Source: Synechococcus sp. CBW1002 (GTDB lineage Bacteria; Cyanobacteriota; Cyanobacteriia; PCC-6307; Cyanobiaceae). From it: DNA of 64,000 nt. Positions 5,057-20,044 of the stretch are shown piece after piece (position 1 is the stretch's first letter; each line of letters begins with the position of its first letter). The stretch is from contig NZ_CP060398.1 of NCBI RefSeq assembly GCF_015840915.1, positions 1,984,001 to 2,048,000 on the forward strand, written 5' to 3'. The translations under genes and the position numbers were made by a program. Below the pieces are notes generated by a model that was given only the letters and a program-made list of their open reading frames with translations, had not been told where the DNA came from and searched no databases.

Positions 5057-6772
5057 GTATCCGTTCAGGGGCCGTGACGCAGCCGCGCAGCATTCACCGC
5101 CCTTGATCGCTGATCACCAAGCGACCACAGACACCACGATCGATGACGGCCGGCTCAGGGATTCGGCAACAGCGATGGCATCTCACCGCCGCGATGATGG
5201 GCGATCAAGGCCTGCTCCAGGAACTGCCAGATATCACGGCCCTGTTGCCGCAGGCTGGTGGTGACCGTGAGCAACCTGCTGCGGCAGATTGCACCCTGGC
5301 GGGATTGGACGCCATGGCTGATCTTGCGCTGAATCACCGAATGGCGCAGGGCACGCTCGGCTGCGTTGTTGGTGGGCTCGATCCCTTCAATCTCCAGGAA
5401 GGTCCAGAGGCCATCGCTCACTTGCAGCAACTGATGGCAGGTACGCACCGTCTTGGCCCACGGCGTTCGCTCGCCGCGCTGGCAGCCCAGCTCCACAACC
5501 CGCTGCAGCGTGCCCACAAACGCCTGGCGGATCGGCCGACAGCCCTGCTGCAACGTGGACCAGTCGATCGTTCCGTCTTTGTAGCGGTGCCACTGGGCAA
5601 ACAGCTGCTGCTGCAGGCCCAGCAGCTCCGCTCCAATCTCACCGCTGGCGCCCTGACGGTCAGCGATGGCAGTGAGATCGCGGATCACGTGCGCCCAGCA
5701 CAGCTGGCGCTGCTCCAGCGGGAGATGGTTGTAGGCGGAGAAGCGATCGCTCACCACAATTCCGCCAAAGGCATTCCCGAGCAGGTCGATCGCGGCGGCA
5801 GCCGAGCGGCTCAGGCTCTGCAAGAACACTGTCACCCCCATGGCGGTCACCATGACCCACTCCCAGCCGCGCCGGCCATCGGGGTTGCCCCCATCGGCAT
5901 TACCGGTGGGGGCACCGGTTTCATCGACATAGACCACCGACTGCTGACGGGCAAACGCAAGGGCCTCCTGCATGGGCTGCTCCAGTGCTGCACTCAAGCG
6001 CTGGCGGATAGTGGCCATCGCTCCCCGGCTGATCTGTACCCCCAGCAGCTGATCCAGCAGCGCCTGGGTCTTGCTGAAACTCAACGGGAAGGCACTACCC
6101 AGCAGACCCACCAGAGCACTGAGCCGGGGACCGTAATGGCTTACTTCCACCTCCGCCGGTAACGAGGCACAGGTGCTGGTGGAACAGCAGGGGCAGACCA
6201 GGCGGTGCAGCCGGTGCTCGATCACCAGAGGCGTGATCGGTGGAATCTCGATCACCTGGTGCCTCAAGGGCTCGGGATCCTGACCCTGTAGCAACGTGCC
6301 GCAGCGGCGGCAGGCCTGGGGGTGGTGCTCGACCACCTCATCCACCCGCTCGATCGGCAGCAGCTCCGGCCCAGATCCGGGATGGCCCGGCTGGCCGCCG
6401 CGCTTGCGGCCACTGCCCTTGCGTCGTTCGGGCGGCTTAAACCCCTGGCCATCACTGGAGGGAGGCTTGGAAGAATTTCGGGAGCTGCGGCCGATCCGCT
6501 CGCGCAGATGGGCCAGTTCGGTCGCCAGGGCGGTGAGCTGGATGCGGAGCTGCTCGATCTCCTGTTGCTGCCTCTGGCACTGACTGACCAGCTCAAGAAA
6601 TCCAGCCTTCACTCCCACCGGGGTGGCGGCCCAATCGGCTTCTGAAATCCCGGCCGGTGGGGTGGTCATCGCAAGGAGTCTCTTACTGAGATGCAACCAG
6701 GAATCAAGCCACCGTCAAGGGTTCAGCAAGCCCGATGTTCGTTGCGAGCTGTCCCGACTCCTGAACGGGTAC
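5057..6772 (-). mobile_element. IS66-family element copy 1 (ISBst12-like, transposase only)
   Basis: A 1716-bp element with ends GTATCCGTTCAGGGG (5057) and CTCCTGAACGGGTAC (ending 6772). It is nearly identical to the copy at 41827-43540, in opposite orientation. Only tnpC is present, without tnpA/tnpB. The 8 nt on each side (AGAGATCC and AGATCGGC) do not match, so unlike copy 2 this copy no longer has its target duplication; the left flank is an IS5 gene and the right flank a recombinase gene. Confidence 0.92.
5155..6696 (-). CDS. IS66-family transposase TnpC (copy 1)
   Basis: A 513-residue DDE transposase that cuts and joins IS66 ends. Domains in order: N-terminal leucine-zipper-like coiled coil with Q/E-rich heptads (about 35-70), the SSRNSSKPPSSDG linker, a Cys4 zinc-binding region (CRRCGTLL and CPCC), then the DDE domain with VVYVDETGAP, GIVVSDRFSAYNHL and the C-terminal EGIEPTNNAAERALR glutamate motif. 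It differs from copy 2 in only a few residues (for example CCSTS versus CCTTS and LRQQG versus LRQEG), which indicates recent duplication. It appears full length and potentially active. Confidence 0.95.
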   Translation of the reverse strand: MHLSKRLLAMTTPPAGISEADWAATPVGVKAGFLELVSQCQRQQQEIEQLRIQLTALATELAHLRERIGRSSRNSSKPPSSDGQGFKPPERRKGSGRKRGGQPGHPGSGPELLPIERVDEVVEHHPQACRRCGTLLQGQDPEPLRHQVIEIPPITPLVIEHRLHRLVCPCCSTSTCASLPAEVEVSHYGPRLSALVGLLGSAFPLSFSKTQALLDQLLGVQISRGAMATIRQRLSAALEQPMQEALAFARQQSVVYVDETGAPTGNADGGNPDGRRGWEWVMVTAMGVTVFLQSLSRSAAAAIDLLGNAFGGIVVSDRFSAYNHLPLEQRQLCWAHVIRDLTAIADRQGASGEIGAELLGLQQQLFAQWHRYKDGTIDWSTLQQGCRPIRQAFVGTLQRVVELGCQRGERTPWAKTVRTCHQLLQVSDGLWTFLEIEGIEPTNNAAERALRHSVIQRKISHGVQSRQGAICRSRLLTVTTSLRQQGRDIWQFLEQALIAHHRGGEMPSLLPNP

Positions 6773-7638
6773 AGATCGGCAGTGGCGAGATCAAGCCAAC
6801 GACCTGGACCAACACGTATGTCCGCCGCATGCGATTGATCCTGGCTGCGGTCGATCGTTGCCAGACACCGGTGCAGCTCCTCGAGGCCATCACCGCTCCC
6901 TGGGCGAATCAGCCTGGGTGCAGGGGACGGCAGCTTCAGGTGCAGCAGACCGCTGCACTCCTGCGCTGGGGTGTTGATACGGGCCGTCTCCCTGCAACCT
7001 GGGCACCCCCTCTTGATCTGACTCCCTATGTGGGCAGACGGCGAGAGACGACCTCCGTGACAACGCCACTGACGGTGGACGAAATTCAATCGTTGGTGGA
7101 GGCGATTCCTGATCCCAAGTGGCGCTACGCGTTTCAGCTGCTCTCCGCCTATGGATTGCGCCCGGAGGAACTGCAGCACCTTGAAGTCCGCAACGGGCGT
7201 CTTTGGTGCAACTACTCCAAGGTGTCCAGTCGGGGCAAGACAGAGCCACGGCCGCTGCGGTTGTTGCCCTGCGATCCGTGGGCTGCTGCCTGGAATCTGG
7301 AGGCCACCTTCCGCTCGGATCGCCTCCCCCCAATGAAACCGGGCCTGGGTGCCGATTCAATGGGCCTCTACATGCGCCGCCGTGCACTCTGGCGCGAGCT
7401 GCGGCGTCGCTACGAAGAACAGGGCGAGAAGTTAGTGCTCTACTCCTGCCGCCATGCCTATGCACATCGGGCCCATACCCTCTGCCCGATGCTGCCCACC
7501 AAATTCGTCGCGGCGGCCATGGGGCACAGCCTGGAGACGCACCTTGCCGCCTACAGCCGCTGGATCGGAGATGACGAGGTGGATGCCGCATTCGAGCGGG
7601 CATCGCAGCGGATGGAGCAGGACCTCCGCGCAGGATGA
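6773..7638 (+). pseudogene. Tyrosine recombinase (phage-type integrase), N-terminus replaced by IS66
   Basis: About 288 residues downstream of the IS66 end. An N-terminal SAM-like core-binding helix bundle (TTWTNTYVRRMRLILAAV onward) is followed by a catalytic domain with the first arginine in SAYGLRPEEL, a YSCRHAYAHRA box, the AAMGHS block and the nucleophile region LAAYSRW. The catalytic residues expected of the family can be traced, but the native start is lost: the open frame begins inside IS66. This was probably the integrase of a genomic island. It lies 37 nt from hipA, whose stop faces it. Activity is doubtful without a native promoter and start. Confidence 0.8.
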
Positions 7639-7674
7639 CGTGCCTCGCGGTGCTCGCGATTGAGCTGCTCAGGG

Positions 7675-9018
7675 TTAACTGAGCTGCTTCTCCAGACGCT
7701 CGGCAGAGCCCTGCAGTCCATCAAGGATCGCGCCGGCCAATGGCTCCGGAAAGCCGCTGGGAAGCTCCTGCTGCACCGTGGCGACCACCTCGGGGGTTCG
7801 GGCCACCAGGTCGGCCACCAAAGCCTCGGCCTCGGCGCCCAGCCCCATCCGGCTGGCGGTGCTGATCAGATGACGGAGTTGCACCTGCATGGGCTTGCTG
7901 GTGCGGCTCTTGGTCCCATGCCAGGCCATCGCCAGGCGCAGCTCCTGCTCGGGCCATTGGCCGGCTGCCTTGCCGATCACCGGCCAGGCCGAGAGCACGT
8001 CGTACAGCGGGGTGAGTCGGTAGCTGCCGCCCGGCAGCAGGAAGAGGCTGAAGTTCTTGGCGTGGCCGTCGATCGCTCGCAGCATCCAGAACAGCACCTG
8101 GGCCTGAAAGAAGCAGCGCAGATCCTCTGCTGCCTGGGCGGACTGGGCGAGCAGCTCGGCGATGGCCACCATGCCCGGACCGCCCTGGTTTTCGTATTTC
8201 TGCTCCGGCGGCGTGCCGGTGGCCTGGCAGAAGTCCTCGACCGGCAGACGCAGCCAGTGGTTGCCGCCTGGATGCAGCCGCCGATCAAAGCGCTCCACGA
8301 TCAGACAGCGCTGGCCGTCAAAGCTGGCCAGCGTGCTGGCAGCCATCGGCAGGCCGTAGGCCGCCAGGATCCGGCCACAGAGCCACTCGTTCTCCACCGA
8401 AGAGGAGAAGTCGATCTGGCCGCTGCCCACCCGGCCCATCGGCAACTTGAACAGATGGGTGGTGGGGGTGCTGCCCTGGGGACGGCACCACCGGTTTTGA
8501 TGCCAGAGCAGGGCTGTTTTCTCCTGGGCTCCGGCGATCGAGAGGCGCAGTTCCCCTTCGGCGCCGGCCGTGTCTCCCGGCAGCGGTTCTGCCACCACTC
8601 CCCGCAGCAGGCGGCCGATGGCTTCATCCGAGAGCGGGGTGGCCTCGATGCGATCCAGGCCGGCGGGTTCTTCCTCAGGGGGCAGGAGCTGCACCGCTCC
8701 GGCGCAGTCGCGCCCCACAGCCTCCAGCAGCTCAAAGGCGCTGGTGCCCCGCAGCGAGAACCGCCGCTGCAGCCGCCGAAGGATGGTCTCGTTGTCGGGG
8801 AGCAGGTTGGCGAACCATTGCTCCACCATTTCCCCTCGCAGCGGAGGCGTGCCGAGGCCAACCGGCAGCGAGAGCGAGAGGGGCCGGAACTGAGGTGAGA
8901 CCAGCCAGGCGGCGTCGTAGTGGAACTCCTGCGGGCCCCGTCCCGGTACGCGCCATTCCCCCACCCGCTCGCCGTTCATCCAGACGGCCAGCTGCCGCGT
9001 GTGGCTGGGGCGGCCCAT
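7675..9018 (-). CDS. hipA: HipA-family serine/threonine kinase toxin
   Basis: A 447-residue type II toxin kinase. In E. coli HipA phosphorylates GltX and triggers growth arrest. Visible parts: N-terminal subdomain (LAVWMNGERVGEW), the ATP-binding glycine loop in LSIAGAQEKTALL at about 160, HLFKLPM, and the catalytic segment DGHAKNFSLF at about 318 followed by YDVLSAW (Mg-binding Asp). Start chosen at 9018 because it overlaps the stop of hipB in an ATGA, the usual arrangement. The long upstream extension of the frame overlaps hipB and is not coding. Confidence 0.93.
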   Translation of the reverse strand: MGRPSHTRQLAVWMNGERVGEWRVPGRGPQEFHYDAAWLVSPQFRPLSLSLPVGLGTPPLRGEMVEQWFANLLPDNETILRRLQRRFSLRGTSAFELLEAVGRDCAGAVQLLPPEEEPAGLDRIEATPLSDEAIGRLLRGVVAEPLPGDTAGAEGELRLSIAGAQEKTALLWHQNRWCRPQGSTPTTHLFKLPMGRVGSGQIDFSSSVENEWLCGRILAAYGLPMAASTLASFDGQRCLIVERFDRRLHPGGNHWLRLPVEDFCQATGTPPEQKYENQGGPGMVAIAELLAQSAQAAEDLRCFFQAQVLFWMLRAIDGHAKNFSLFLLPGGSYRLTPLYDVLSAWPVIGKAAGQWPEQELRLAMAWHGTKSRTSKPMQVQLRHLISTASRMGLGAEAEALVADLVARTPEVVATVQQELPSGFPEPLAGAILDGLQGSAERLEKQLS

Positions 9019-9287
9019 CACCACTCCGCCGGTTCCGTGCGGCGCCGGCGGGGCCGCACCACCAGCTCCAGATCCAGGGCGGCGAGGATGAGCAGCAACC
9101 GCTCCAGGGTGAAACGGCCGGGATTGAGCTCCAGGGCCGAAAGTCGTGCCTGGCTGATGCCACCGGCCTTCTGCGCCAGGACCGACTGACTGAGACCGCA
9201 CTGACGGCGCAGGGCGATCAGCAGCTGCGCCAGCTGGGATGGGGCACGGATGACCACCTCCTCCTCAGCGGCCTGGACAGAGGACAC
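9018..9287 (-). CDS. hipB: HipB-family antitoxin, Xre-type HTH
   Basis: An 89-residue DNA-binding antitoxin and autorepressor. Central HTH_XRE motif (LIALRRQCGLSQSVLAQKAG, then ISQARLSALELNPGRFTLERL) and a C-terminal hydrophobic strand (LLLILAALDLELVVRPR) as in HipB, which forms the dimer core. It is the first gene of hipBA, overlapping hipA by 4 nt. Autoregulation is expected; the operators should lie in 9288-9380, where I see no clear inverted repeat by eye. Confidence 0.92.
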   Translation of the reverse strand: MSSVQAAEEEVVIRAPSQLAQLLIALRRQCGLSQSVLAQKAGGISQARLSALELNPGRFTLERLLLILAALDLELVVRPRRRRTEPAEW

Positions 9288-9380
9288 AGCACTTGGATTC
9301 TGAGTATTCCCAGGCTACTTGCAATCCGCGTAACCGCAATCCAGTCGGAAAACAAGTGAACAGGGTGCTTCTGCGAGGGC

Positions 9381-10655
9381 TCAGCGTTCCAGCAGCTGCC
9401 AGAAGCTCCACTTCTGCGCGAAGGCCTCCCGCAATCGCCCCACAAAGCTGTTGTGGCTCTCAAAACCCTGCCAGTCGTCGATGCGGGCCTCCAGCCGCTC
9501 GCACTGCCGCAGGTTCTCGGCGGCGTAGCGGTAGCGCTTGGAGCGGCCCATCGACAGGGCGAACACCACCATGGAGCGCAGCAGCAGGCTGGCGGCCACA
9601 GGATGGTCGGCGCTGAGGCGCTCAGCTGCAGGTTCGACGATCTCATAGGCATCGCCATCCCAGTCGTGGCAGTGCTCGATCACGTAGCGAGCCGCGCGGG
9701 GCAGGCTGGGCCAGAAGACAAGGAACTGCAGCGCCGCCAGCGGCAAGGGATGCTGCTCTGCCGCCGCCAGGGCCTGCTCCTCGGCCTCCACATCGGCGAA
9801 GTCATCCAGCCGCTGCAGGTACTCGCGCAGCACTGGAATCGAGAGGGTTTTGGAGAAGACCTGCCAGCGGTGCTGCTGCGCCTCCTCGCAGCGACCCAAG
9901 GCCTCGAGCACAGCAATGCGGGTGGCGTGCCACGACTCGGCCTCCATGATCTGGCTCGCCTTGGCGGCATGGTCCAGCACCGTCAGGGCCTGCTCGGCCC
10001 GACCGCCTCGGAGCAGATGGCCGGCCACCTCGGCGGCGGTGTCGGGCCAGGTGAGCTGGGAGGGCTCGAACAGCTCCAGATAGCCATCCAGGTCGCCACG
10101 GCCCTGGGCAAGCTGCTCCATGGTGTAGCGATCGACGCCACCCCGCTCCAGCAGCGCCTCAAACAGCAGCGTGGCCGTCGCCACCGACACATTCAGCGAC
10201 TGCACCATGCCCCGCATCGGGATGAACACCGCCTGATCCATCAGGGCGGTGGCGGCAGCGCTCAGACCCCATTTCTCCGCCCCGAGCACGAAGGCGCAGG
10301 GGCCGGTGAAATCGCAGTCGCGGTAGTCGCGCGCCTCCACACCCAGGTTGGTGCCATACAGCCTGAAGCCCCCCGCCTTCAGGTGCTCCACGGCGGTGCC
10401 GATGTCGGCGTGGTCATGCAGCGGCACCCAGCGCTGGCTGCCCTGGGCGGTGCTGTTGGCGGTGCTGTTGAACGTGCGCGGCCGGCCACTCAGGCTCACC
10501 GCATGGGCCTCCAGCACCCCCACGGCATCGCAGCTGCGCAGAATGGCCGACAGGTTATGGGGCTTCTCCACATGCTCCACCAGCACGGTCAGATCAGACA
10601 TGCGTTGGTTCAAAACCGTCTTCAGGCGCTCGAATCGACGGGGAAGCAATGGCAT
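9381..10655 (-). CDS. trmH: TrmH-like tRNA 2'-O-methyltransferase fused to a DUF6880-type helical repeat domain
   Basis: About 424 residues from the start at 10655 (MPLLPRRFERL), the usual cyanobacterial TrmH start. Residues 1-170 are a SpoU/TrmH knot methyltransferase that would methylate G18 of tRNA: EKPHNLSAILRSCDA (motif 1), CAFVLGAEKWGLS (motif 2) and the knot MRGMVQSLNVSVATATLLFE (motif 3). The C-terminal TrmH extension is replaced by about 250 residues of alpha-helical repeats rich in AEE/AAE, ending SFVGRLREAFAQKWSFWQLL, which fits DUF6880. A short NSTA duplication occurs in NSTANSTAQG, encoded by a near-perfect 12-nt repeat near 10450. The catalytic half looks intact. See the finding on the fusion. 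Confidence 0.85.
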   Translation of the reverse strand: MPLLPRRFERLKTVLNQRMSDLTVLVEHVEKPHNLSAILRSCDAVGVLEAHAVSLSGRPRTFNSTANSTAQGSQRWVPLHDHADIGTAVEHLKAGGFRLYGTNLGVEARDYRDCDFTGPCAFVLGAEKWGLSAAATALMDQAVFIPMRGMVQSLNVSVATATLLFEALLERGGVDRYTMEQLAQGRGDLDGYLELFEPSQLTWPDTAAEVAGHLLRGGRAEQALTVLDHAAKASQIMEAESWHATRIAVLEALGRCEEAQQHRWQVFSKTLSIPVLREYLQRLDDFADVEAEEQALAAAEQHPLPLAALQFLVFWPSLPRAARYVIEHCHDWDGDAYEIVEPAAERLSADHPVAASLLLRSMVVFALSMGRSKRYRYAAENLRQCERLEARIDDWQGFESHNSFVGRLREAFAQKWSFWQLLER

Positions 10656-10754
10656 GATGGGCTGATCAGCGGCCTCAAGAAGGGGGGGATTCCTACCGAT
10701 CACATCGTGAAATGGATCTTGCTGGCAGGTTTCTGAGTGTCTAAATTTGTGATT

Positions 10755-11816
10755 TCACCATTCGCATTCATCGCCGGAGTTGCAGGGATAGATTTTGTAG
10801 CCCTCTCCAATAAGCTTTGGAGTGTCGCTGTTGTCAATCATCCATTTGTCGAGTCGCAAAACATATTTGTTAGGGCTTTCTAGAAAGAGTCCGGCGAAGT
10901 AGATTTCAACAAAAGGAGGCCAGCCTTTTCCGCTGACCCCAGGCTCGTTATCAGCATAGCATTTCCAGCCGTATTTCACCCCATAGGAATCCATGCTTGG
11001 CGATGTGAAATTTGCGTTCGGCATGCTGGAGTCCTGTTCGCAGACCCATGGGTAGAGGGCAAAGCTGAAGGTATGGATCTTGCCTTTGACGTTGTCATAT
11101 GGATTGCCGGATTTGTGAATGGCCATGATCTTGTCGCAGACAGGTTGGTACCAGGGCCGAGCATTGCCTGGGCCAGCGCCGCAAATAGCCCCACTGCGTA
11201 CGTCGTCACCCAATCCATACCAGCCAGCCCAGTAACGCATCTGTCCAAAGGTTGTCTTGGAGTTGGGGTGGGTGAAGGTGCAGTGATTGCGTCCATGGGG
11301 ACCTTTTAGGCAGCCTGGTTGAGTATTGCCCCCGTCAAATCGCTCAATATATTTGATATCTCCAAAGCAATCGGGTTGAATTCCCGCGCCGTCGCAGTTG
11401 TGGAAGACCCAATAGTCTTTTCGATTGCTTTTCGGAAAGCTAGCCCACGTTCGAGCACCCATGTTCCATTGGGCTCCAGCCACGATATCTTCATAGGGAC
11501 TGCCTCCGCACACTGGTTTCAGGACTGGATTTTGATCGAGATTGAACTGGAATGGTCGATAAAAGAATGGAGAACAGCTGGTATCACTCGCGCCTTCTCC
11601 ACCGCCCCCGCAAAAGTTGGTGAGTTTGGTCACCGGTCCATTCGGTGCAGGAATATGAGCCCAGCAAAAACCTTGCCCTAGACCGCTGATTAATGCTGGG
11701 GATGGTGATGATTTCGATGGTTCAAAGATTTTGTTGGTCTCAGATGGAATGGCAGGGGGCAGTAAGGTGAGGCTTGAACCAAGTCCGGCCAATAATGTGT
11801 TCAGCATTCCATTCAT
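10755..11816 (-). CDS. Cys-rich, probably secreted protein of unknown function
   Basis: A 353-residue protein I do not recognise. The N-terminus is weakly hydrophobic (MLNTLLAGLGSSLTLLPPAIP), fitting a signal peptide or anchor. The remainder holds about 16 cysteines and many Trp/Tyr/Gly/Asn residues, with no long helices, suggesting a disulfide-stabilised extracellular fold. Base composition is clearly lower in GC than the neighbours, with A/T-ending codons, which suggests recent transfer. It is divergent from the ATL gene; upstream (11817-11860) is AT-rich with an AATCATAATC stretch that could serve as a -10 region. Confidence 0.65.
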   Translation of the reverse strand: MNGMLNTLLAGLGSSLTLLPPAIPSETNKIFEPSKSSPSPALISGLGQGFCWAHIPAPNGPVTKLTNFCGGGGEGASDTSCSPFFYRPFQFNLDQNPVLKPVCGGSPYEDIVAGAQWNMGARTWASFPKSNRKDYWVFHNCDGAGIQPDCFGDIKYIERFDGGNTQPGCLKGPHGRNHCTFTHPNSKTTFGQMRYWAGWYGLGDDVRSGAICGAGPGNARPWYQPVCDKIMAIHKSGNPYDNVKGKIHTFSFALYPWVCEQDSSMPNANFTSPSMDSYGVKYGWKCYADNEPGVSGKGWPPFVEIYFAGLFLESPNKYVLRLDKWMIDNSDTPKLIGEGYKIYPCNSGDECEW

Positions 11817-11903
11817 GAACTCACGCTCTGATTATGATTCTTTTCAAGGAATGATCTGTGAATGCTTGGATTCCGAAACCGCTTCGGAAGCAAGAGGAGT
11901 GTG

Positions 11904-12293
11904 ATGACGGCAGCGTTTGACTCCCGTGTTCATGCGGTTGTGGCCACAATCCCTTCTGCACGGTTGGCGACCTACGGCCAGGTGGCCGACTGGATCGGTG
12001 CCTATGGCTGCGCCCGCCAGGTGGGCTGGGCCTTGCGGCGGCTCACCCTTCCATCGCCGATCCCCTGGCACCGGGTGGTGAATGCCCGGGGCCGGGTGGC
12101 GATGAGCCTCAGCCGTGAGGGATCCGACTGGATGCAGCGTCAGATGCTGATCGCCGAGGGCATTCCCGTCGACGACGAGGGGCGTCTGCCCCTGAAGCGC
12201 TTCCTCTGGACGCCGGAGCCGCAGGCGATCCGCGGAGCGCTAGCTCTGGAGCTCCCCCGTCCACCCGATCGCATGGCTGAATCGCATGGCTGA
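11904..12293 (+). CDS. Alkyltransferase-like (ATL) protein, MGMT DNA-binding-domain family
   Basis: 129 residues from the ATG at 11904, chosen over 11862 because AGAGGAG lies 5-6 nt upstream. It has the MGMT C-terminal DNA-binding fold (IPSARLATYGQVADWIG, winged helix). The active-site PCHR motif reads PWHRVV, so the alkyl-acceptor cysteine is replaced by tryptophan: this is an ATL protein, which flips and binds O6-alkylguanine and hands it to nucleotide excision repair rather than repairing it. Its end overlaps the start of rsmB by 8 nt, so the two are probably cotranscribed. Confidence 0.9.
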   Translation: MTAAFDSRVHAVVATIPSARLATYGQVADWIGAYGCARQVGWALRRLTLPSPIPWHRVVNARGRVAMSLSREGSDWMQRQMLIAEGIPVDDEGRLPLKRFLWTPEPQAIRGALALELPRPPDRMAESHG

Positions 12294-13674
12294 CGCCGCT
12301 GCCGACACTGTGGACACCGCCACCGGGCTGGGGCCGCGCCGGGTCGCCTGGGAGGTGCTGGAAGCGGTGGCGGCCGGCGCCTATGCCGATGTGGCGCTGG
12401 AGCGGGCCCTGCGCGGTGCCGGTCTCTCTGCTACGGATCGTGGTCTGGCCACGGAGCTGGCCTATGGGGCGATCCGGCGTCGCCTCTGGCTCGACGCCTG
12501 GCTGGATCGGCTTGGCAAGGTGCCCGCCCGCAAGCAGCCGCCCCGGCTGCGCTGGCTCCTGCACGTGGGCCTCTATCAGCTCTTCTGGATGGAGCGGATC
12601 CCGGCCGCCGCTGCGGTGCACACCACGGTGGAGCTGGCCAAGCAGCATCGTCTGGCGCGGCTGGCGCCGGTGGTGAATGGTCTGCTGCGGGCTGCCCTGC
12701 GGGCCCAGGCGGCGGGCGACACCCTGGCGCTGCCCGCCGATGCGGCGGAGCGCCTGTCGCTACAGCAGTCGCTGCCGCTGTGGTTCTGCCAGGAGTTGCT
12801 GGCCTGGGCCGACGGCGAGTGGAGCCAGGCGCTCGCCATGCCCGCGGTGGAGCGCATCGCTGCCGCCTCTAATCAGGTGCCGCCCCTGGATCTGCGCGTC
12901 AACCGCCTGCGCAGCACGCCGGCTCTTGTGTCGGCAGCCCTGGACGCTGCCGGGCTCGAGATCCGGCCGATTGCGGGGTGCCCCGATGGATTGCAGGTGC
13001 TCGGATCCGCTGGTGATCTGCGCCAGTGGCCCGGCTATGCCGAGGGGCATTGGTGTGTGCAGGACCGGGCCGCCCAGTGGGTGGCGCCCCTGCTGGAGCC
13101 CCGGCCCGGCGAGCGGCTGCTCGATGCCTGTGCCGCACCCGGCGGCAAAGCCACCCATCTGGTCGAGTTGATCGGTGATCGCGGCGAGGTGTGGGCGGTG
13201 GATCGTTCCGCCGGTCGCCTGCAGCGAGTGGCCGCGAATGCGGCCCGGCTCGGTTGCGCGTCTGTGAACGCGCTGGCGGCCGATGCCTGCGAGCTGCTGC
13301 GGCAGCGCCCCCAGTGGCGCAGTGCGTTTCAACGCATCCTGCTCGATGCGCCCTGTTCCGGTCTCGGCACCCTGGCCCGCCATGCCGATGCCCGCTGGCG
13401 TGTCACGCCCGACTCGATCGCCGCACTGCTGCCGCTGCAGGCGCGCTTGCTGGAGGCGATGCTGGCGTTGCTCGCTCCCGGTGGCCGGCTGGTGTATGCC
13501 ACCTGCACGATCCACCCGGCGGAGAACCAGCACCAGATCGCTGGTTTGCTCGCCGCCCATCCCGAGCTGACGTTGGTGTCGGAGCAGCAGCGCTGGCCCG
13601 ATCCCGATGGTGGCGATGGCTTCTATGCGGCGGTGATCACCGCACCGGGAATCACTGCACCGGCAGGGGCCTGA
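12286..13674 (+). CDS. rsmB: 16S rRNA (cytosine-C5-967) methyltransferase RsmB
   Basis: A 462-residue enzyme that methylates C967 of 16S rRNA with SAM. The N-terminal NusB-like RNA-binding domain covers about 1-140 (TDRGLATELAYGAIRRRL). The Rossmann domain has motif I DACAAPGGKATHL at about 280, motif IV DAPCSGLGTLARH and the catalytic-cysteine motif VYATCTIHPAEN near 400. Full length for the family. Coupled to the upstream ATL gene; its end overlaps the convergent PBP gene by 23 nt. Confidence 0.95.
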   Translation: MADAAADTVDTATGLGPRRVAWEVLEAVAAGAYADVALERALRGAGLSATDRGLATELAYGAIRRRLWLDAWLDRLGKVPARKQPPRLRWLLHVGLYQLFWMERIPAAAAVHTTVELAKQHRLARLAPVVNGLLRAALRAQAAGDTLALPADAAERLSLQQSLPLWFCQELLAWADGEWSQALAMPAVERIAAASNQVPPLDLRVNRLRSTPALVSAALDAAGLEIRPIAGCPDGLQVLGSAGDLRQWPGYAEGHWCVQDRAAQWVAPLLEPRPGERLLDACAAPGGKATHLVELIGDRGEVWAVDRSAGRLQRVAANAARLGCASVNALAADACELLRQRPQWRSAFQRILLDAPCSGLGTLARHADARWRVTPDSIAALLPLQARLLEAMLALLAPGGRLVYATCTIHPAENQHQIAGLLAAHPELTLVSEQQRWPDPDGGDGFYAAVITAPGITAPAGA

Positions 13675-15697
13675 AGTACTCGTCCACCGGGGGGCCTCCT
13701 GCTGGGGCCACGTCGCGCGGTGGCGGTGCCTGCCGGGGCGCCGGTTCGGGGGCGGTCGTTTCGGGTTTCGGGTCCCAGATACTCGGGTCCGGGTCGACCT
13801 CATAGCCCCGATACGGCACCTCCCGGGGTTGCTGGGCCTGCTTCGGTGGTTGCGCCTTGCTACCCGGCTTTTTGAAGCTGCGTTTGAGAACGGGTTTGGG
13901 TGGGAAGTTCTGCACCGGAAACTGACCCTTGATCTTGGTCATGAACCGGCCCCAGGCCCAGGCGGCTTCACCGCTGTTGCTCTTGGTGTCACGGTTGTTG
14001 TCATGGCCGAACCAGACGGCCGTGGTGAGCTGGGGAATCGAACCGATGAACCACAGATCACGGGCGCCTTCCGAGGTGCCGGTCTTGCCGGCCACGGGGC
14101 GATCATCGAGCCTGGCGGCGGCGCCGGTGCCGCCTTGCACCACCCGTTGCAGCATCCAGTTCATGGCATCAGCCACATCGCTGTCGACCGCTCGGCGGCC
14201 GCGATCCCCATCCACACGGCGGCTCCAGATCACCTCACCCCCCGGGCCGCGGATCTCCTCGAAGGCCACCGGTTTCACATACACCCCGCGGTTGGCGACC
14301 GCCGCGTAGGCCGCCGCCATGTCGAGAATCGTCTGTTCGTAGGCGCCGATGGCCATCGGATAAAACTTGCCTAAGGGCCGGGTGGTGCCGATCCCGAGCT
14401 TGTTGGCCATCGTGATGATCGGATCGAAGCCCAGCTTCTCCTGCAGCTGCACCGCCACGGTGTTGAGCGAGTTCTTCAGGGCATCGGCCAGGGAGATCCG
14501 GCCGAAATATTTGCTGCCGAAGTTCTTCGGGCAGTAGCCACCCCAGCAGCGGGGGGAATCGTTGAAGATGTCTTCCGGCTTGACACCGGCCTCGATCGCC
14601 GCGGCATAGGGGAAGAGCTTGAAGGTGGAGCCTGGAGAGCGCAGCGCCTGGGTGGCTCGGTTGAACTGGCTGGTGTTGAAATCCTTGCCTCCCACCATCA
14701 CCCGCACCAGACCGGTGCCCGGTTCGATCGACACGAGCGCCCCCTCCGTGCCATTGGGAGCGAACTGTTTCACCACCTGGCGGCCCTCGTTCTGCCAGGC
14801 GAGGTTGAGGCTGGTGCGGATCTGCAGACCGCCCACCTCGAGCTGCTCGGGGGTGAGGAGCGTGGGCAGCTGCTGCGCCACCCAGCTGCTGAAATAGGGG
14901 GCGGCGCTGTTGAAGTATTTCGGCGTCGCCGGTTTGAGATCGAGTGGCGCCAGGCGCGCCGCCGCCGCTTCACCGGCCGTGATGAAGCCGGCCTGCTGCA
15001 TGCGATCGAGCACGATCGAGCGCCGCTCCAGGGCCAGATCGGGGTTCACCAGCGGTGAATACACCGATGGCGCCGGCGGTAAACCGGCGATCAGGGCCGC
15101 CTCCGGCAGGGTGAGCTGATCCGGTTGCTTGGAGAAATACACCCAGGCGGCATCGGCGACGCCATAGGCACTCGAGCCCAGATACACGAAATTGAGGTAT
15201 TGCTCGAGGATCTGCTCCTTGCTGAGCTGGCGCTCGAGTTTGTAGGCCAGGGTCGCTTCCTTCAGCTTCCGGGTGATCGTGCGGTCCTGGCTCAGGAACA
15301 CCATGCGGGCCAGCTGCTGGGTGATCGTGCTGGCGCCTTCACGCACGGAGCCCTGGCGCAGGTTCGTCACCACGGCCCGGCCGATGCCCCAGAGATCCAC
15401 GCCCTTGTGCTCGAAGAAACGTCGATCTTCCGCAGCCACGAAAGCCTGCTTCACCAGCTCAGGCATCTGCCCCGGAGCGATCTTCTCCCGCGTCGCAGGG
15501 CCCAGCTTCTGGATCACCTGGCCATCACTGGAGAGCAGGGTGAGGGTTCCGGGGCGATTGAAGCGGGCGATGCCGCGGGCATCGGGCAGGGTGGCATCGA
15601 GGGCCTGGGTGATCACAGCCTGGCTCAGGGCCACGCCGATGCCGATGAAGCCGGCAGTCGCGCCGACCAACACCCAGTGACGGCGACGGCGTTTCAC
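13652..15697 (-). CDS. Class A penicillin-binding protein (PBP1A-type glycosyltransferase/transpeptidase)
   Basis: A 681-residue bifunctional peptidoglycan synthase in the cytoplasmic membrane. N-terminal basic residues plus one membrane anchor (about 8-30). GT51 domain with EDRRFFEHKGVDLWGI and the GASTITQQLARM motif; penicillin-binding domain with SxxK in SPGSTFKLF, SxN in KNSLN and KTGTS near residue 560. The C-terminal 60 residues are proline-rich and low complexity. All catalytic motifs are present. Its start overlaps the stop of the truncated chlG (ATGA at 15694-15697), so it was probably transcribed behind chlG. Confidence 0.95.
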   Translation of the reverse strand: MKRRRRHWVLVGATAGFIGIGVALSQAVITQALDATLPDARGIARFNRPGTLTLLSSDGQVIQKLGPATREKIAPGQMPELVKQAFVAAEDRRFFEHKGVDLWGIGRAVVTNLRQGSVREGASTITQQLARMVFLSQDRTITRKLKEATLAYKLERQLSKEQILEQYLNFVYLGSSAYGVADAAWVYFSKQPDQLTLPEAALIAGLPPAPSVYSPLVNPDLALERRSIVLDRMQQAGFITAGEAAAARLAPLDLKPATPKYFNSAAPYFSSWVAQQLPTLLTPEQLEVGGLQIRTSLNLAWQNEGRQVVKQFAPNGTEGALVSIEPGTGLVRVMVGGKDFNTSQFNRATQALRSPGSTFKLFPYAAAIEAGVKPEDIFNDSPRCWGGYCPKNFGSKYFGRISLADALKNSLNTVAVQLQEKLGFDPIITMANKLGIGTTRPLGKFYPMAIGAYEQTILDMAAAYAAVANRGVYVKPVAFEEIRGPGGEVIWSRRVDGDRGRRAVDSDVADAMNWMLQRVVQGGTGAAARLDDRPVAGKTGTSEGARDLWFIGSIPQLTTAVWFGHDNNRDTKSNSGEAAWAWGRFMTKIKGQFPVQNFPPKPVLKRSFKKPGSKAQPPKQAQQPREVPYRGYEVDPDPSIWDPKPETTAPEPAPRQAPPPRDVAPAGGPPVDEYFRPLPVQ

Positions 15698-16335
15698 ATC
15701 GCCTGCGTCAGGGGGCTGTGGCCCACGGCCAGGGCGGTCACCAGCATGCCGAGCACGAGAAAGGGTTGGGCACTGGCCTGATATTTCACGTCAAAAGCAA
15801 CGGGGTCGCGCAGCAGCCAAATGTCCTGAAAGGTGATCTGAGGCACGATCAACAACACCAGCAGCACGGCAGCAAAATGCTGTCCGATTGCGATCAGAAC
15901 AGCAACCATCAGCAACTGGAACCCATCGATCATCCCGGCGCTGATCCAGCTGGCGCGCTCCGTGCCGAACACCACCGGCAGCGACTGCAGGCCCAGAGCC
16001 CTGTCACCCTCCACACTCTTGAAATCGTTCACCACGGCGATGCCCAGCCCCGCCAGGCTGTAGGCCAGGGTGAGCATGGCGGTGGCCCAGGTGAGCTGGC
16101 CGAACAGGGCCTGGCCGGCCCACCACGGCAAAGCGATGTAACTGGCTCCGAGGGCGTAATTGCCGAGCCAGCCATTCTGTTTCAGCTTCAAGGGAGGAGC
16201 CGAATAGATGTAGCTCACGAAGGAGCCGCCGAGGGCGAGCAGCAGCACCACCGGAGTGCTGTGGCCGGCCCAGAGATCGAGACCCCAGGCCACGGCCAGA
16301 CCCGCCAGCAGCAGCACCCAGATCTGCAGCTTCAC
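15694..16335 (-). pseudogene. chlG: Chlorophyll synthase ChlG, N-terminally truncated
   Basis: 213 residues closely matching the C-terminal two thirds of ChlG, the UbiA-type prenyltransferase that attaches the phytyl/geranylgeranyl tail to chlorophyllide a. Homology starts at VKLQIWVLLLAGLA with a GTG codon at 16335. The second Asp-rich motif (NDFKSVEGD) and several membrane helices are present, but about 100 residues, including the first NDxxDxxxD motif needed for catalysis, are missing. Upstream in frame reads GFYTTQRDAALDQ, not ChlG. Since ChlG is essential in a cyanobacterium, an intact copy is expected elsewhere, or this locus was rearranged next to IS256. Confidence 0.85.
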
Positions 16336-16613
16336 CTGGTCGAGGGCCGCGTCCCTTTGCGTGGTGTAAAACCCGAGGCCCGAATGCCCTGACTCAGAGG
16401 GTGAACAGGGTGGAATGACGGGCTGTCATTCCTGAGGTGCAGATGCACCTCGTTTTTCCACGATGAAACGAGACGATTGACTTGTCAAGTCTCTCGTCTG
16501 ATCGCGGCTGTGTTGTGAGCGGCAGGAGTCTTCTATGCAGCCCAGGGGTTACAGCGCCGGCCCCCGGGCGGCGATCGAGGCCGCTGCGCCCTGTGGGGGC
16601 GCTGCCACCTCAA
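16336..16613. other. Junction between truncated chlG and IS256 transposase
   Basis: Contains small inverted repeats (GGTGCAGATGCACC around 16436-16449; AATGACGGGCTGTCATT around 16414-16430) that look like remnants of element ends. No gene recognised and no matching IS256 terminal repeat was found by eye. Confidence 0.45.
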
Positions 16614-17786
16614 TCACCTGGGGCCTGCGTCTTGCACCTCTGCGGCGGCGGCGCTGAGCAGGGCCGGCAGATCCTCCAGCTCCGGGATGGCAGCCATGCT
16701 TTCGGCGGAGAACATGCGGCGGCCTTCCAGCTGCCAATGCTCGTGCTGCTCCAGCAGCACCGCGCCCACCAGGCGGGTGATCGACGCGTCGTTGGGGAAG
16801 ATGCCGACGACGCGGGTGCGGCGCTTGATCTCCTCGTTGACCCGCTCCAGCAGGTTGGTGCTCCAGACCTTCTTCCAGTGAGGCTGCGGGAAGTGACGGA
16901 AGGCCAGCACGTCCTCTCTGGCCTCGTTCATGAGCTCGGTGGCCTTGGGGAAGCGCTCCGCCAGCGAGGCGGCCAGGTCATCCCAGCGGCTGAGGATCTC
17001 TCCGGCATCCTCCTGAGCGAACACCGAGCGCAGGGCGGCGGTGACCATGCCCTGGTGGGCTTTGGGGACGCGCTGGAGAAGGTTGCGGGCGAAGTGGACG
17101 CGGCAGCGCTGCCACACACAGCCCTGCAGCTGGCGCCTGATGGCCTTGGTGAGGCCCACGTGGGCGTCGGAGATCACCAGCTTGACGCCAGTCAGGCCGC
17201 GCTCTTTGAGCGAGGCGAGGAACTCACTCCAGAAGCCCTCGCTCTCGCTGTCGCCCACCTTGAGGCCCAGCAGCTCACGGCGACCATCGGCGTTGACCCC
17301 CATGGCGACGACGACGGCCCTTGAGCAGACCTGCAGGGCCTTGCCCAGCCGGCCGTGGAGGTAGGTGGCATCCAGGTAGACGTAGGCGTAGCCGGACTCC
17401 TGCAGGGGCCGGTTCAGAAACGCCTGAACCTGCTCGTCGATGTCCTGGCAGATGCGACTGACCTGGGATTTGGAGATACCGCTCTGGGATCCCAGGGCGG
17501 CGACCAGGGCATCCACCTTGCGGGTGGAGACCCCACAGATGTAGGCCTCCATGATCACGCCGTAGAGGGCCTGCTCCACCCGGCGACGGGGCTCGAGGAT
17601 CGAGGGCAGGAAGCTGCCAGCCCGCAGTTTGGGGATCAGCAGGTCGATGTCGCCTACCTGGGTGGTCAGACTGCGCGGCCGGTAGCCGTTGCGGTAGCCG
17701 AGCCGCTCCTCGCTGCGCTCATGGCGCTCTGCGCCGAGCACGGCAGCGACCTCCAGCTCGATCAGCTGCTGCAGGCCGTGGCGCAC
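16614..17786 (-). CDS. IS256-family (mutator-type) transposase
   Basis: At least 390 residues from a GTG at 17786; the frame is open to about 17860 and the true start may be slightly upstream (AAIELAPLLDGSSAGELIPE is family-like). Domains: N-terminal helices, the RNGYRPRSLTTQVGDIDL block, DDE catalytic region with YVYLDATYLHGR, VISDAHVGLTKA and the STNLLERVNEEIKRRTR C-terminal glutamate motif. All catalytic acids are present, so it may be active, but its 5' end is abutted by the group II intron and terminal repeats were not found. Confidence 0.9.
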   Translation of the reverse strand: MRHGLQQLIELEVAAVLGAERHERSEERLGYRNGYRPRSLTTQVGDIDLLIPKLRAGSFLPSILEPRRRVEQALYGVIMEAYICGVSTRKVDALVAALGSQSGISKSQVSRICQDIDEQVQAFLNRPLQESGYAYVYLDATYLHGRLGKALQVCSRAVVVAMGVNADGRRELLGLKVGDSESEGFWSEFLASLKERGLTGVKLVISDAHVGLTKAIRRQLQGCVWQRCRVHFARNLLQRVPKAHQGMVTAALRSVFAQEDAGEILSRWDDLAASLAERFPKATELMNEAREDVLAFRHFPQPHWKKVWSTNLLERVNEEIKRRTRVVGIFPNDASITRLVGAVLLEQHEHWQLEGRRMFSAESMAAIPELEDLPALLSAAAAEVQDAGPR

Positions 17787-17865
17787 CAGCTCGGGGATCA
17801 GCTCACCGGCGCTGCTGCCATCCAGTAGCGGCGCCAGCTCAATTGCGGCACGATTGGACGTGGGC

Positions 17866-19735
17866 GTGTGTCACGAGTCAGCAGGTGAAAGCCAAGGCTG
17901 ATGAAACTGCATCGGGGATGGGAGTGTGGCCTCCCGGGATCGGCCTGCAGGGGCTGGTACCAAACCACCCCGTGCTGCTGCGTTCAAAAGACGTGGTGGT
18001 GAGCGACGGGGAAACGGCGGACTGGATCCGTCAGGTGTGCGACGAGAAGGTGAGCGCAAGCGAACCGTTGATGACGCGCCGATATCTATTTCAGACGCTG
18101 CCAAAACGGGAGGCGGCCCAAATCTCCTGGATCAGTGTGGACAGAGCCTGTCTATGGACCACACGGCAGCCGGCGTATAGACGGCACGAGCTCATCGCAG
18201 GCCCTGATGCGGAACGTGAGAACCTGCCATGGAATGCCAAGGGAACATCCCAAGTGGTCACCACCATGAGGGTCAATACCGATGTCTGTGGCAGGGGCGG
18301 AGCAACCCGTAGTAGCGATGATGGGTCTGTAACGGACTCGGAGCCAAGGGGTTGCATCATCCCGTTTGGAGTCTCCCATCAACTGCCTACGGCAGGAGGA
18401 ATGGGATGACAACAGACAAGCCGCTACCGATTACCAAGGTGATGGTCTGGAAGGCCTATCAACAGGTGAAACGGAACGGACAGGCGGCCGGTGTGGATGG
18501 CCAAAGCCTGGACGACTTCAACAAGGATCTGGAGAATAATCTCTACAAACTCTGGAATCGGATGGCATCAGGAAGTTATCTTCCGCCACCAGTTCGGCGT
18601 GTGGAGATTCCCAAATCCGGTGGAGGCGTCAGGCCGCTGGGTATCCCGACGGTTGCTGATCGCATCGCACAGATGGTGGTCAAGCAGGTGCTGGAGCCAG
18701 AGCTGGAGCTGATCTTTGATCAGGATTCCTACGGCTACAGACCGGGCAAGTCAGCGCATCAGGCAGTAGAGGTCTGCCGTCAGCGCTGCTGGAGGTCCAA
18801 CTGGGTTCTCGATCTCGACATCAAGGGGTTTTTCGATGCTATCGATCACGACCTGTTGATGCGCGCGATCAAGGCCCATACCTCCGAGCGCTGGGTGGTG
18901 CTCTACCTGCAACGATGGCTGCAGGCACCGGTTCTGTTGCCGGATGGCACGCTCCATCCCAGGGACCGGGGCACACCGCAAGGTGGTGTCATCAGTCCAC
19001 TGCTGGCCAATCTGTTCCTGCACTATGCGTTTGATGTGTGGATGCGCCGGAGCCACCCGGCCATTGCCTTTGAGCGCTATGCAGATGATGTGATCTGTCA
19101 TTGCCACAGCGAGAAGGAAGCTCGGCGGTTGCTGGAGGCATTGCAGGATCGCTTTGCGTCCTGTGGCCTCCAGCTTCATCCCCAGAAGACCCAGGTGGTC
19201 TACTGCAGGGATAGCAACCGCCGGGCACCGCTTGCTGATGTCACGTTCACGTTTCTTGGTTTCGCGTTTCGGCCACGTGTGTCTCGCAATTCTCGCGGAG
19301 TCATCTACACAGGCTTTTTGCCGGCAGTGAGTCCGCAGGCTCTCCAGCGTATGCGGGAGAGGATTAGGTCGATAGGGCTTCCATCGCTCGTGTATCTGTC
19401 GCTTGAGGAGATCGCTAAAGTGCTGAATCCAGTGATTCGTGGCTGGATTCAGTACTACGGTCGTTTCTATAGGACAGAACTGATCAGGAAGTTGTATCGC
19501 TACCTGGATGACAGAATTGCAGCCTGGTTACGGCAGAAGTACAAAAGGCTGCGGGGTCGTCGGCTCCAAAGCTGGCGAGTACTTGCCAGGATCAGGTCTG
19601 GACATCGTGATCTGTTCGCGCACTGGCGTCGAGTCAGTGAAGTGGCATGTGGATGATGGGAGCCGTATGACGCGAGAGTGTCACGTACGGTTCTGTGAGC
19701 ACCTCGGGGGGAAGTTCCCCGGGGTGACTCGACAT
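17866..19735 (+). mobile_element. Group II intron with encoded reverse transcriptase
   Basis: The 5' end fits the GTGYG group II consensus (GTGTG at 17866). About 540 nt of ribozyme domains I-III/IV precede the RT gene. Domain V is at 19660-19694: AGCCGT at its start, a GAGA-type tetraloop region and the closing ACGGTTCT, as in bacterial group II introns. A domain VI hairpin (about 19695-19733, CCTCGGGGGG/GTTCCCCGGGG) follows, ending near GACAT. The retroelement inserts by retrohoming. The 3' boundary is accurate to a few nt. It sits immediately upstream of the IS256 transposase frame. Confidence 0.85.
18406..19656 (+). CDS. ltrA: Group II intron reverse transcriptase/maturase
   Basis: About 416 residues from the ATG at 18406, which is preceded by GGCAGGAGGA. 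It splices and reverse-transcribes the intron RNA. RT blocks: VRPLGIPTVADRIAQ (RT1-2), QDSYGYRPGKSAHQA, WVLDLDIKGFFD (first catalytic Asp), RGTPQGGVISPLLANL and FERYADDVICHC (the YADD active site). The maturase X domain follows (EEIAKVLNPVIRGWIQYYGRF). No HNH endonuclease domain is visible; it is compact like class C or other En-minus lineages. It lies within domain IV of the intron. Confidence 0.95.
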   Translation: MTTDKPLPITKVMVWKAYQQVKRNGQAAGVDGQSLDDFNKDLENNLYKLWNRMASGSYLPPPVRRVEIPKSGGGVRPLGIPTVADRIAQMVVKQVLEPELELIFDQDSYGYRPGKSAHQAVEVCRQRCWRSNWVLDLDIKGFFDAIDHDLLMRAIKAHTSERWVVLYLQRWLQAPVLLPDGTLHPRDRGTPQGGVISPLLANLFLHYAFDVWMRRSHPAIAFERYADDVICHCHSEKEARRLLEALQDRFASCGLQLHPQKTQVVYCRDSNRRAPLADVTFTFLGFAFRPRVSRNSRGVIYTGFLPAVSPQALQRMRERIRSIGLPSLVYLSLEEIAKVLNPVIRGWIQYYGRFYRTELIRKLYRYLDDRIAAWLRQKYKRLRGRRLQSWRVLARIRSGHRDLFAHWRRVSEVACG

Positions 19736-19829
19736 GGTTCGTCTGGTTGAGGTGGTTCTCGAACCAGGGAAACGGGCCTGCCCACCCCTTGCAACGCCAG
19801 CCGCTGGGCCAGCCACCTGAGGTGCGCGG

Positions 19830-19854
19830 CCCACCCCGGCTACGCCGGGGTGGG
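19830..19854. terminator. Strong GC hairpin, possible bidirectional terminator
   Basis: A perfect 11-bp stem CCCACCCCGGC / GCCGGGGTGGG around a TAC loop, between the group II intron and the stop of the small minus-strand gene at 19868. There is no T-tract, so function is uncertain. Confidence 0.4.
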
Positions 19855-19867
19855 AGTGCCGGGGGAT

Positions 19868-20044
19868 TTACACCAAGCCTTGGGACGCCAGCGCCGCAAT
19901 GACGGCCTGGCGCAGCTGCTCGATGCCGTCCAGCTGCTGGGGCTGAGCCTGCCAGTGGTCCCAGAACTGGCGCCAGCGCTCCGCGCTGAATGGCGCCTGG
20001 GCTGCAGGCGATGGCGGGGATGCAGAGGCGGCGGTGGCGGTCAT
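19868..20044 (-). CDS. Small hypothetical protein next to capsid gene
   Basis: 58 residues, start chosen at 20044 (MTATAASASPPSPAAQ). After a low-complexity Ala/Pro leader it is amphipathic and Trp-rich (AERWRQFWDHWQAQPQ, then IEQLRQAVIAAL). I do not recognise it. It is divergent from the capsid gene and ends next to a strong hairpin. Supported mainly by its amino-acid pattern. Confidence 0.4.
   Translation of the reverse strand: MTATAASASPPSPAAQAPFSAERWRQFWDHWQAQPQQLDGIEQLRQAVIAALASQGLV

Follow-up and report, generated by a model that had tools for sequence, protein, structure and literature searches.

Does a reading frame that joins the core of a tRNA methyltransferase to a helical repeat domain encode a new two-domain enzyme, or is it a fusion created by recombination? 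This question is raised by a 424-codon frame in a window of 64,000 nucleotides (the whole stretch of DNA analysed) from Synechococcus sp. CBW1002, which the initial annotation had described as TrmH fused to DUF6880-like helical repeats.

A TrmH core joined to half of a DUF6880 protein

Translation and Pfam searches bore out the description of a fusion and the limits assigned to it. The frame at 9381-10655 (− strand) is a single one, opening with ATG at 10655 and containing 0 internal stops, and it carries both domains: SpoU_methylase (PF00588) at residues 22-164 (E = 7.2e-34; 117.4 bits against a cut-off of 29.7) and DUF6880 (PF21810) at residues 176-420 (E = 1e-79; 269.2 bits against a gathering threshold of 27.3). 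The DUF6880 match is not full length and covers only profile positions 227-471 of 472, which correspond to the C-terminal half. The usual TrmH C-terminus was confirmed to have been replaced; at residue 168, following FEAL, the frame parts from TrmH, and about 58 C-terminal residues of an ordinary TrmH are absent. The coordinates of the frame, its parts and its neighbors are listed in Table 1.

Table 1. Features in and around the chimeric frame (window coordinates)
Feature	Position	Strand	Details
IS66 transposase gene	5155-6696		adjoins the integrase remnant
Cyanobium-like segment	6773..10160	.	95.2% nucleotide identity to G297:C32 over 3,388 bp (blastn)
Integrase remnant	6773..7638	+	similarity to G297 starts exactly at 6773; N-terminus missing
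hipA-like gene	7675..9020	−	start approximate; open frame reaches 9201
hipB-like antitoxin	9018..9287	−	89 aa; same segment as DUF6880'
Chimeric ORF	9381..10655	−	424 aa; TrmH core + C-terminal half of DUF6880; open frame and Pfam
DUF6880-derived part (DUF6880')	9381..10160	−	C-terminal half, equivalent to L008 (a 445-aa relative) from about residue 189 to 445; Pfam and alignments
Junction	10151..10160	−	10-bp microhomology GAGGCGCTGC; present in both parents
TrmH-derived part (trmH')	10151..10655	−	residues 1-168; Pfam, blastn and alignments
12-bp tandem duplication	10446..10469	−	two NSTA copies (residues 63-70), FNSTAQGS loop; 4-aa insertion
Marine-Synechococcus-like segment	10151..16344	.	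trmH'-orf353-ATL-rsmB-pbp1a-chlG'
orf353	10755..11816	−	353 aa; 93% identical to the gene beside trmH in G230
chlG fragment	15694..16335	−	5'-truncated, foreign, 213 aa; UbiA profile from position 71
IS with Mutator-family transposase	16345..17786	−	bounds the foreign block; right edge nominal

The term helical repeat was also found to be apt. A structural model of a full-length DUF6880 relative (L008) was all-helical, with a mean pLDDT of 86 and no strands of at least 3 residues, and DUF6880 is confidently predicted by this model to be an alpha-solenoid. Foldseek searches with the model returned generic TPR/solenoid proteins at TM-scores below 0.3, and homology to these is not claimed; the best E value in a profile search of solved structures was 0.03. 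Neither the chimera nor full-length DUF6880 had a match in PADLOC, and a literature search returned no paper with DUF6880 and none in which two of SWIM zinc finger, DUF6880 and PF21810 occur together. DUF6880 is common in this cyanobacterial family (Cyanobiaceae). Compared with its relatives, the chimera has the C-terminal half only, whereas 26 of the 27 aligned relatives span the 445-residue form end to end (L038 covers 2-441; the partial or split loci L028 and L004 were left out of the alignment).

The initial annotation had allowed that close relatives might share this domain order; the fusion was sought in relatives and was absent from all examined. Among the matches listed from 400 family genomes (own included), the window's own gene alone matched residues 1-424; any full-length match would have headed this list, and the other listed matches covered one half only. 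The same gene was again alone in matching at full length in a second draw of 399 order-level genomes (largely the same genomes, own included). A scan of 84,980 species' genomes returned 63 loci, 61 on the TrmH side (starting at residue 1 or 6) and two on the DUF6880 side (residues 171-424), with none covering both halves. When 241 bp of junction DNA were used as a query against 2 genomes of the genus (own included), the other one, G023, matched the trmH part only, and an empty-site comparison in this one genus relative matched about 60 residues of the left marker and 0 of the right, so the site was not located there. A plasmid search with window 6700–16400 gave no match, and no exact junction match was found in viral contigs. 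Judged by the genomes searched, the TrmH-DUF6880 fusion is not an established family architecture.

Two foreign segments and their joint

The claim that hipBA and a broken integrase lie beside the fusion held, and these genes form, together with DUF6880', one 3.4-kb stretch sharing 95% identity with a Cyanobium contig. In this Cyanobium genome (G297), DUF6880 is full length (445 aa), with hipB and then hipA coming after it. Amino acid identities between the window and G297 were 94.5% for DUF6880 (residues 171-424), 97.8% for hipB and 94.3% for hipA. By eye, the G297 integrase sequence continues in frame upstream of the point equivalent to 6773, so the window integrase has lost its N-terminus. 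The hipBA-like pair (7675-9287) adjoins DUF6880 as in Cyanobium G297; hipBA stood beside DUF6880 in none of the other 26 family loci fetched (flanks of up to 1.5 kb).

The TrmH side of the chimera has other relatives. Analysis by blastn against fetched regions revealed 86–87% DNA identity between window 10151–10656 and trmH of G192 and G180, both of genus g34, and 84–87% identity between window 11940–16344 (ATL, rsmB, pbp1a, chlG) and g34 regions. WH7803 was among the close named TrmH matches in the scan of 84,980 species, and we take g34 and WH7803-like genomes to be marine Synechococcus. Window 11862-15697 contains additional, foreign copies of ATL (alkyltransferase-like), rsmB (for a 16S rRNA methyltransferase) and pbp1a, all full length and free of stops, and the native copies are retained. 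In G180 and G192 (L049, L041), the divergent trmH and ATL start codons overlap on one CATG, as judged by eye. The chlG fragment ends at 16344, where the IS begins, and runs for 213 codons without a stop or frameshift; a native chlG is present in L037.

Between trmH' and ATL lies orf353, for which Pfam and NCBIfam gave no convincing match. Of 399 other genomes of the family, 12 had a match to it, including 10 of genus g34, and in four it lay within about 2.5 kb of trmH. A later insertion of orf353 between trmH and ATL, considered because the gene is absent in G180 and G192, was ruled out since G230 carries orf353 beside trmH. G230 is colinear with window 10753–12209 at 92% DNA identity, and several hundred trmH-adjacent bases are missing from the window. 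By these comparisons, orf353 belongs to the same segment as trmH'.

A second, normal trmH had been proposed as a check on the fusion, and one was found. The genome is a single contig of 3,854,122 bases (completeness 99.74%, contamination 0.26%), and its other TrmH, of 229 aa (242-codon open frame), is 79% identical to chimera residues 1–173. It lies at a separate, syntenic locus at about C1:2433–2439 kb, in the order trmH (229 aa)-ATL-rsmB-pbp1a-chlG. At the amino acid level, the window trmH part is 90-92% identical to four g34 relatives compared with 80% to the native copy, and the window rsmB is 88-89% identical to the two closest g34 copies compared with 60% to the native one. Two further proteins of the genome carry DUF6880 (46% and 43% identity), and the SpoU part finds three matches there that are more distant. 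The initial annotation had suggested that an island integrated into trmH might have created the fusion. A fusion within an island is indeed favored; integration into the organism's own trmH was ruled out, since that gene stands undamaged at a separate locus and the window trmH is closer to marine-Synechococcus-type genomes.

The joint itself could be placed to within 10 bp. Read along the gene, the window tracks G192 and G180 up to ...TTTGAGGCGCTGC and then follows G297 from GAGGCGCTGCTGGAG... onward, and the shared GAGGCGCTGC is present in G192, G180, G297 and the window. This 10-mer reads E-A-L in both parents, and the frame was therefore kept open. When 300,000 random joints were drawn per parent pair, the fraction sharing at least 10 bp was 6.7e-5 for G180 and 6.0e-5 for G192. 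Eight distinct 10-mers are common to both parental stretches, so a microhomology site was available and was not unique. Both models place the joint close to the end of a helix (169–191 for DUF6880, 152–172 for the chimera), which makes a foldable protein possible.

State of the TrmH core

According to PMC5372735, the catalytic residues of TrmH in T. thermophilus numbering are Asn35, Arg41, Glu124, Ser150 and Asn152, and initial tRNA binding by the T. thermophilus enzyme involves Lys90, Arg166, Arg168 and Arg176; PMC5372735 and PMC11640301 give initial tRNA binding as the main role of the C-terminal region. All five catalytic residues are kept in the chimera (N34, R40, E127, S153 and N155), as is the equivalent of Lys90 (Lys93). 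The equivalent of Arg166 is lost, with L169 in the chimera at the place of R169 in the aligned TrmHs; the place of Arg168 is taken by R171, an Arg originating from DUF6880, and the positions of Arg176 and the tail come after the joint. R169 and Q170 are found in 65 of 65 distinct TrmHs, namely those in the loci collected up to that alignment, compared with L169 and E170 in the chimera. The same 65 frames all measure 224-231 aa from the TrmH start, and all have a gap at residues 63–66, the insertion that arises from the 12-bp tandem duplication.

Compared with TrmH (PDB 1v2x, 7edc and 1zjr), the chimera is alike in its SPOUT core and all five catalytic positions (1v2x matched residues 7-176 at E = 2.9e-51 in phmmer), and it differs in its replaced tail, the lost Arg166 equivalent and the 4-residue insertion before GSQRW. 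Judged by the initial tRNA-binding residues together with the C-terminal region, the chimera falls outside TrmH, and its score of 181.3 bits against the NCBIfam TrmH equivalog NF008295 lies below the cut-off of 227. A mixed alignment placed TrmH rows on the DUF6880 half and was left out of the modelling; the chimera model, built from TrmH rows only, had a mean pLDDT of 60, with residues 63–74 around the insertion poorly predicted and the DUF6880 part unreliable.

Origin and likely role of the chimera

The best-supported reading of these comparisons is an accident of a known kind; both halves are foreign and the native trmH is untouched. The chimera very probably results from illegitimate recombination in a mosaic island bounded by IS elements, which joined a foreign trmH to DUF6880'; the product probably has no selected role. 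Its origin can be read directly from the DNA, in the relatives of the donors, the joint to within 10 bp, the IS-bounded ends and the intact native trmH. We propose that a trmH of marine-Synechococcus type was acquired horizontally and cut after 168 codons, that the 3' part of a Cyanobium-type DUF6880 gene arrived on the segment with hipBA and the integrase, and that microhomology-type recombination at GAGGCGCTGC joined both segments, with the frame staying open by chance. If translated, the product would consist of a knotted SPOUT core followed by about half an alpha-solenoid; it would presumably bind tRNA weakly or not at all and have little or no Gm18 activity, and the native TrmH would supply Gm18. 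Most likely, the chimera has no TrmH role.

The extent of selection was estimated from dN/dS. Compared with g34, the ratios were 0.06–0.16 for the TrmH core, 0.17–0.19 for rsmB, 0.11–0.13 for pbp1a, 0.18–0.25 for ATL and 0.03–0.05 for the chlG fragment; for the DUF6880 part compared with G297 the ratio was 0.14. As a selection test on the chimera these ratios were rejected as uninformative, the lowest being those of the truncated chlG fragment. Because this 5'-truncated gene is unlikely to work and has the lowest ratio, the substitutions would mostly predate the transfer. The dN/dS values speak neither for nor against function, and a recent arrival is suggested; the stop-free state of the truncated chlG also points to a recent event.

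Some observations go against an accident: the five catalytic residues are kept, 424 codons run without a stop, and the core and DUF6880 part have low dN/dS ratios, compatible with selection. In a functional two-domain methyltransferase, the TrmH core would methylate tRNA or another RNA, with the DUF6880 half-solenoid as a replacement binding arm. The open frame and the intact N34, R40, E127, S153, N155 and Lys93 fit such an enzyme, and SPOUT folds accept C-terminal extensions, as exemplified in PMC5372735 by Mallam's ThiS fusions and Thermoplasma Trm56. Past the open frame and the catalytic residues, however, nothing positive was found for the novel enzyme that the initial annotation had offered as an alternative, and we regard it as unlikely: the fusion occurs once among the genomes examined, the native TrmH makes it redundant, the 4-aa insertion is unique, R169 and Q170 are lost, only half of DUF6880 is present and the TrmH equivalog score falls short (181 against 227). 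That the chimera is expressed and methylates some other RNA, the native TrmH having relieved it of Gm18, seems quite unlikely; if true, it would illustrate a natural change of substrate by a SPOUT enzyme via a single recombination event.

An in silico join between contaminating DNA of marine Synechococcus and of Cyanobium could also place two donors within 10 kb and put the outer borders at repeated IS elements, as found here. Such an assembly artefact is very unlikely given one 3.85-Mb contig of 99.74% completeness and 0.26% contamination, segments that both differ from every sampled genome (95% and 86% identity), and a trmH joint that lies outside repeats and carries a 10-bp microhomology. 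Least likely of all is an old, lineage-specific family architecture with other members unsampled. Just one other genome of the genus was sampled, which leaves room for it, but only the TrmH half of the query across the joint was matched in that genome (G023), the parts of the island are still 86-95% identical to donor relatives, and the adjacent truncated chlG has no stop or frameshift in 213 codons.

Chimeric genes formed by illegitimate recombination in genomic islands are a general phenomenon. The accidental fusion that we favor resembles them in its joint microhomology, foreign segments and IS bounds, and differs only in staying in frame near a helix end. It also resembles SPOUT proteins with additional C-terminal domains (Thermoplasma Trm56 with an HDPD-like domain and the engineered ThiS fusions) in carrying a domain behind the knotted core (PMC5372735); those fusions were tested experimentally, whereas the chimera is a recombination product of a single genome known from its sequence. 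It provides a well-resolved case of an apparently novel domain architecture arising in one genome from two foreign segments, one 10-mer and a lucky frame, and cautions against taking single-genome fusions as new enzymes. It gives no clue to the function of DUF6880. An active chimera would provide a natural test of the dependence of SPOUT methyltransferases on the C-terminal tail.

The IS that bounds the foreign block is not confined to the window. The same IS and a reverse transcriptase/maturase gene also occur near C1:2586–2590 kb of the genome, and window 16344-19892 and L038:3173-6832 share the arrangement of a Mutator-family IS followed by a group II intron-type reverse transcriptase/maturase gene in these two genomic places. 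The two copies are 88% and 98% identical in their two parts, and the second lies directly beside a native DUF6880 gene (L003).
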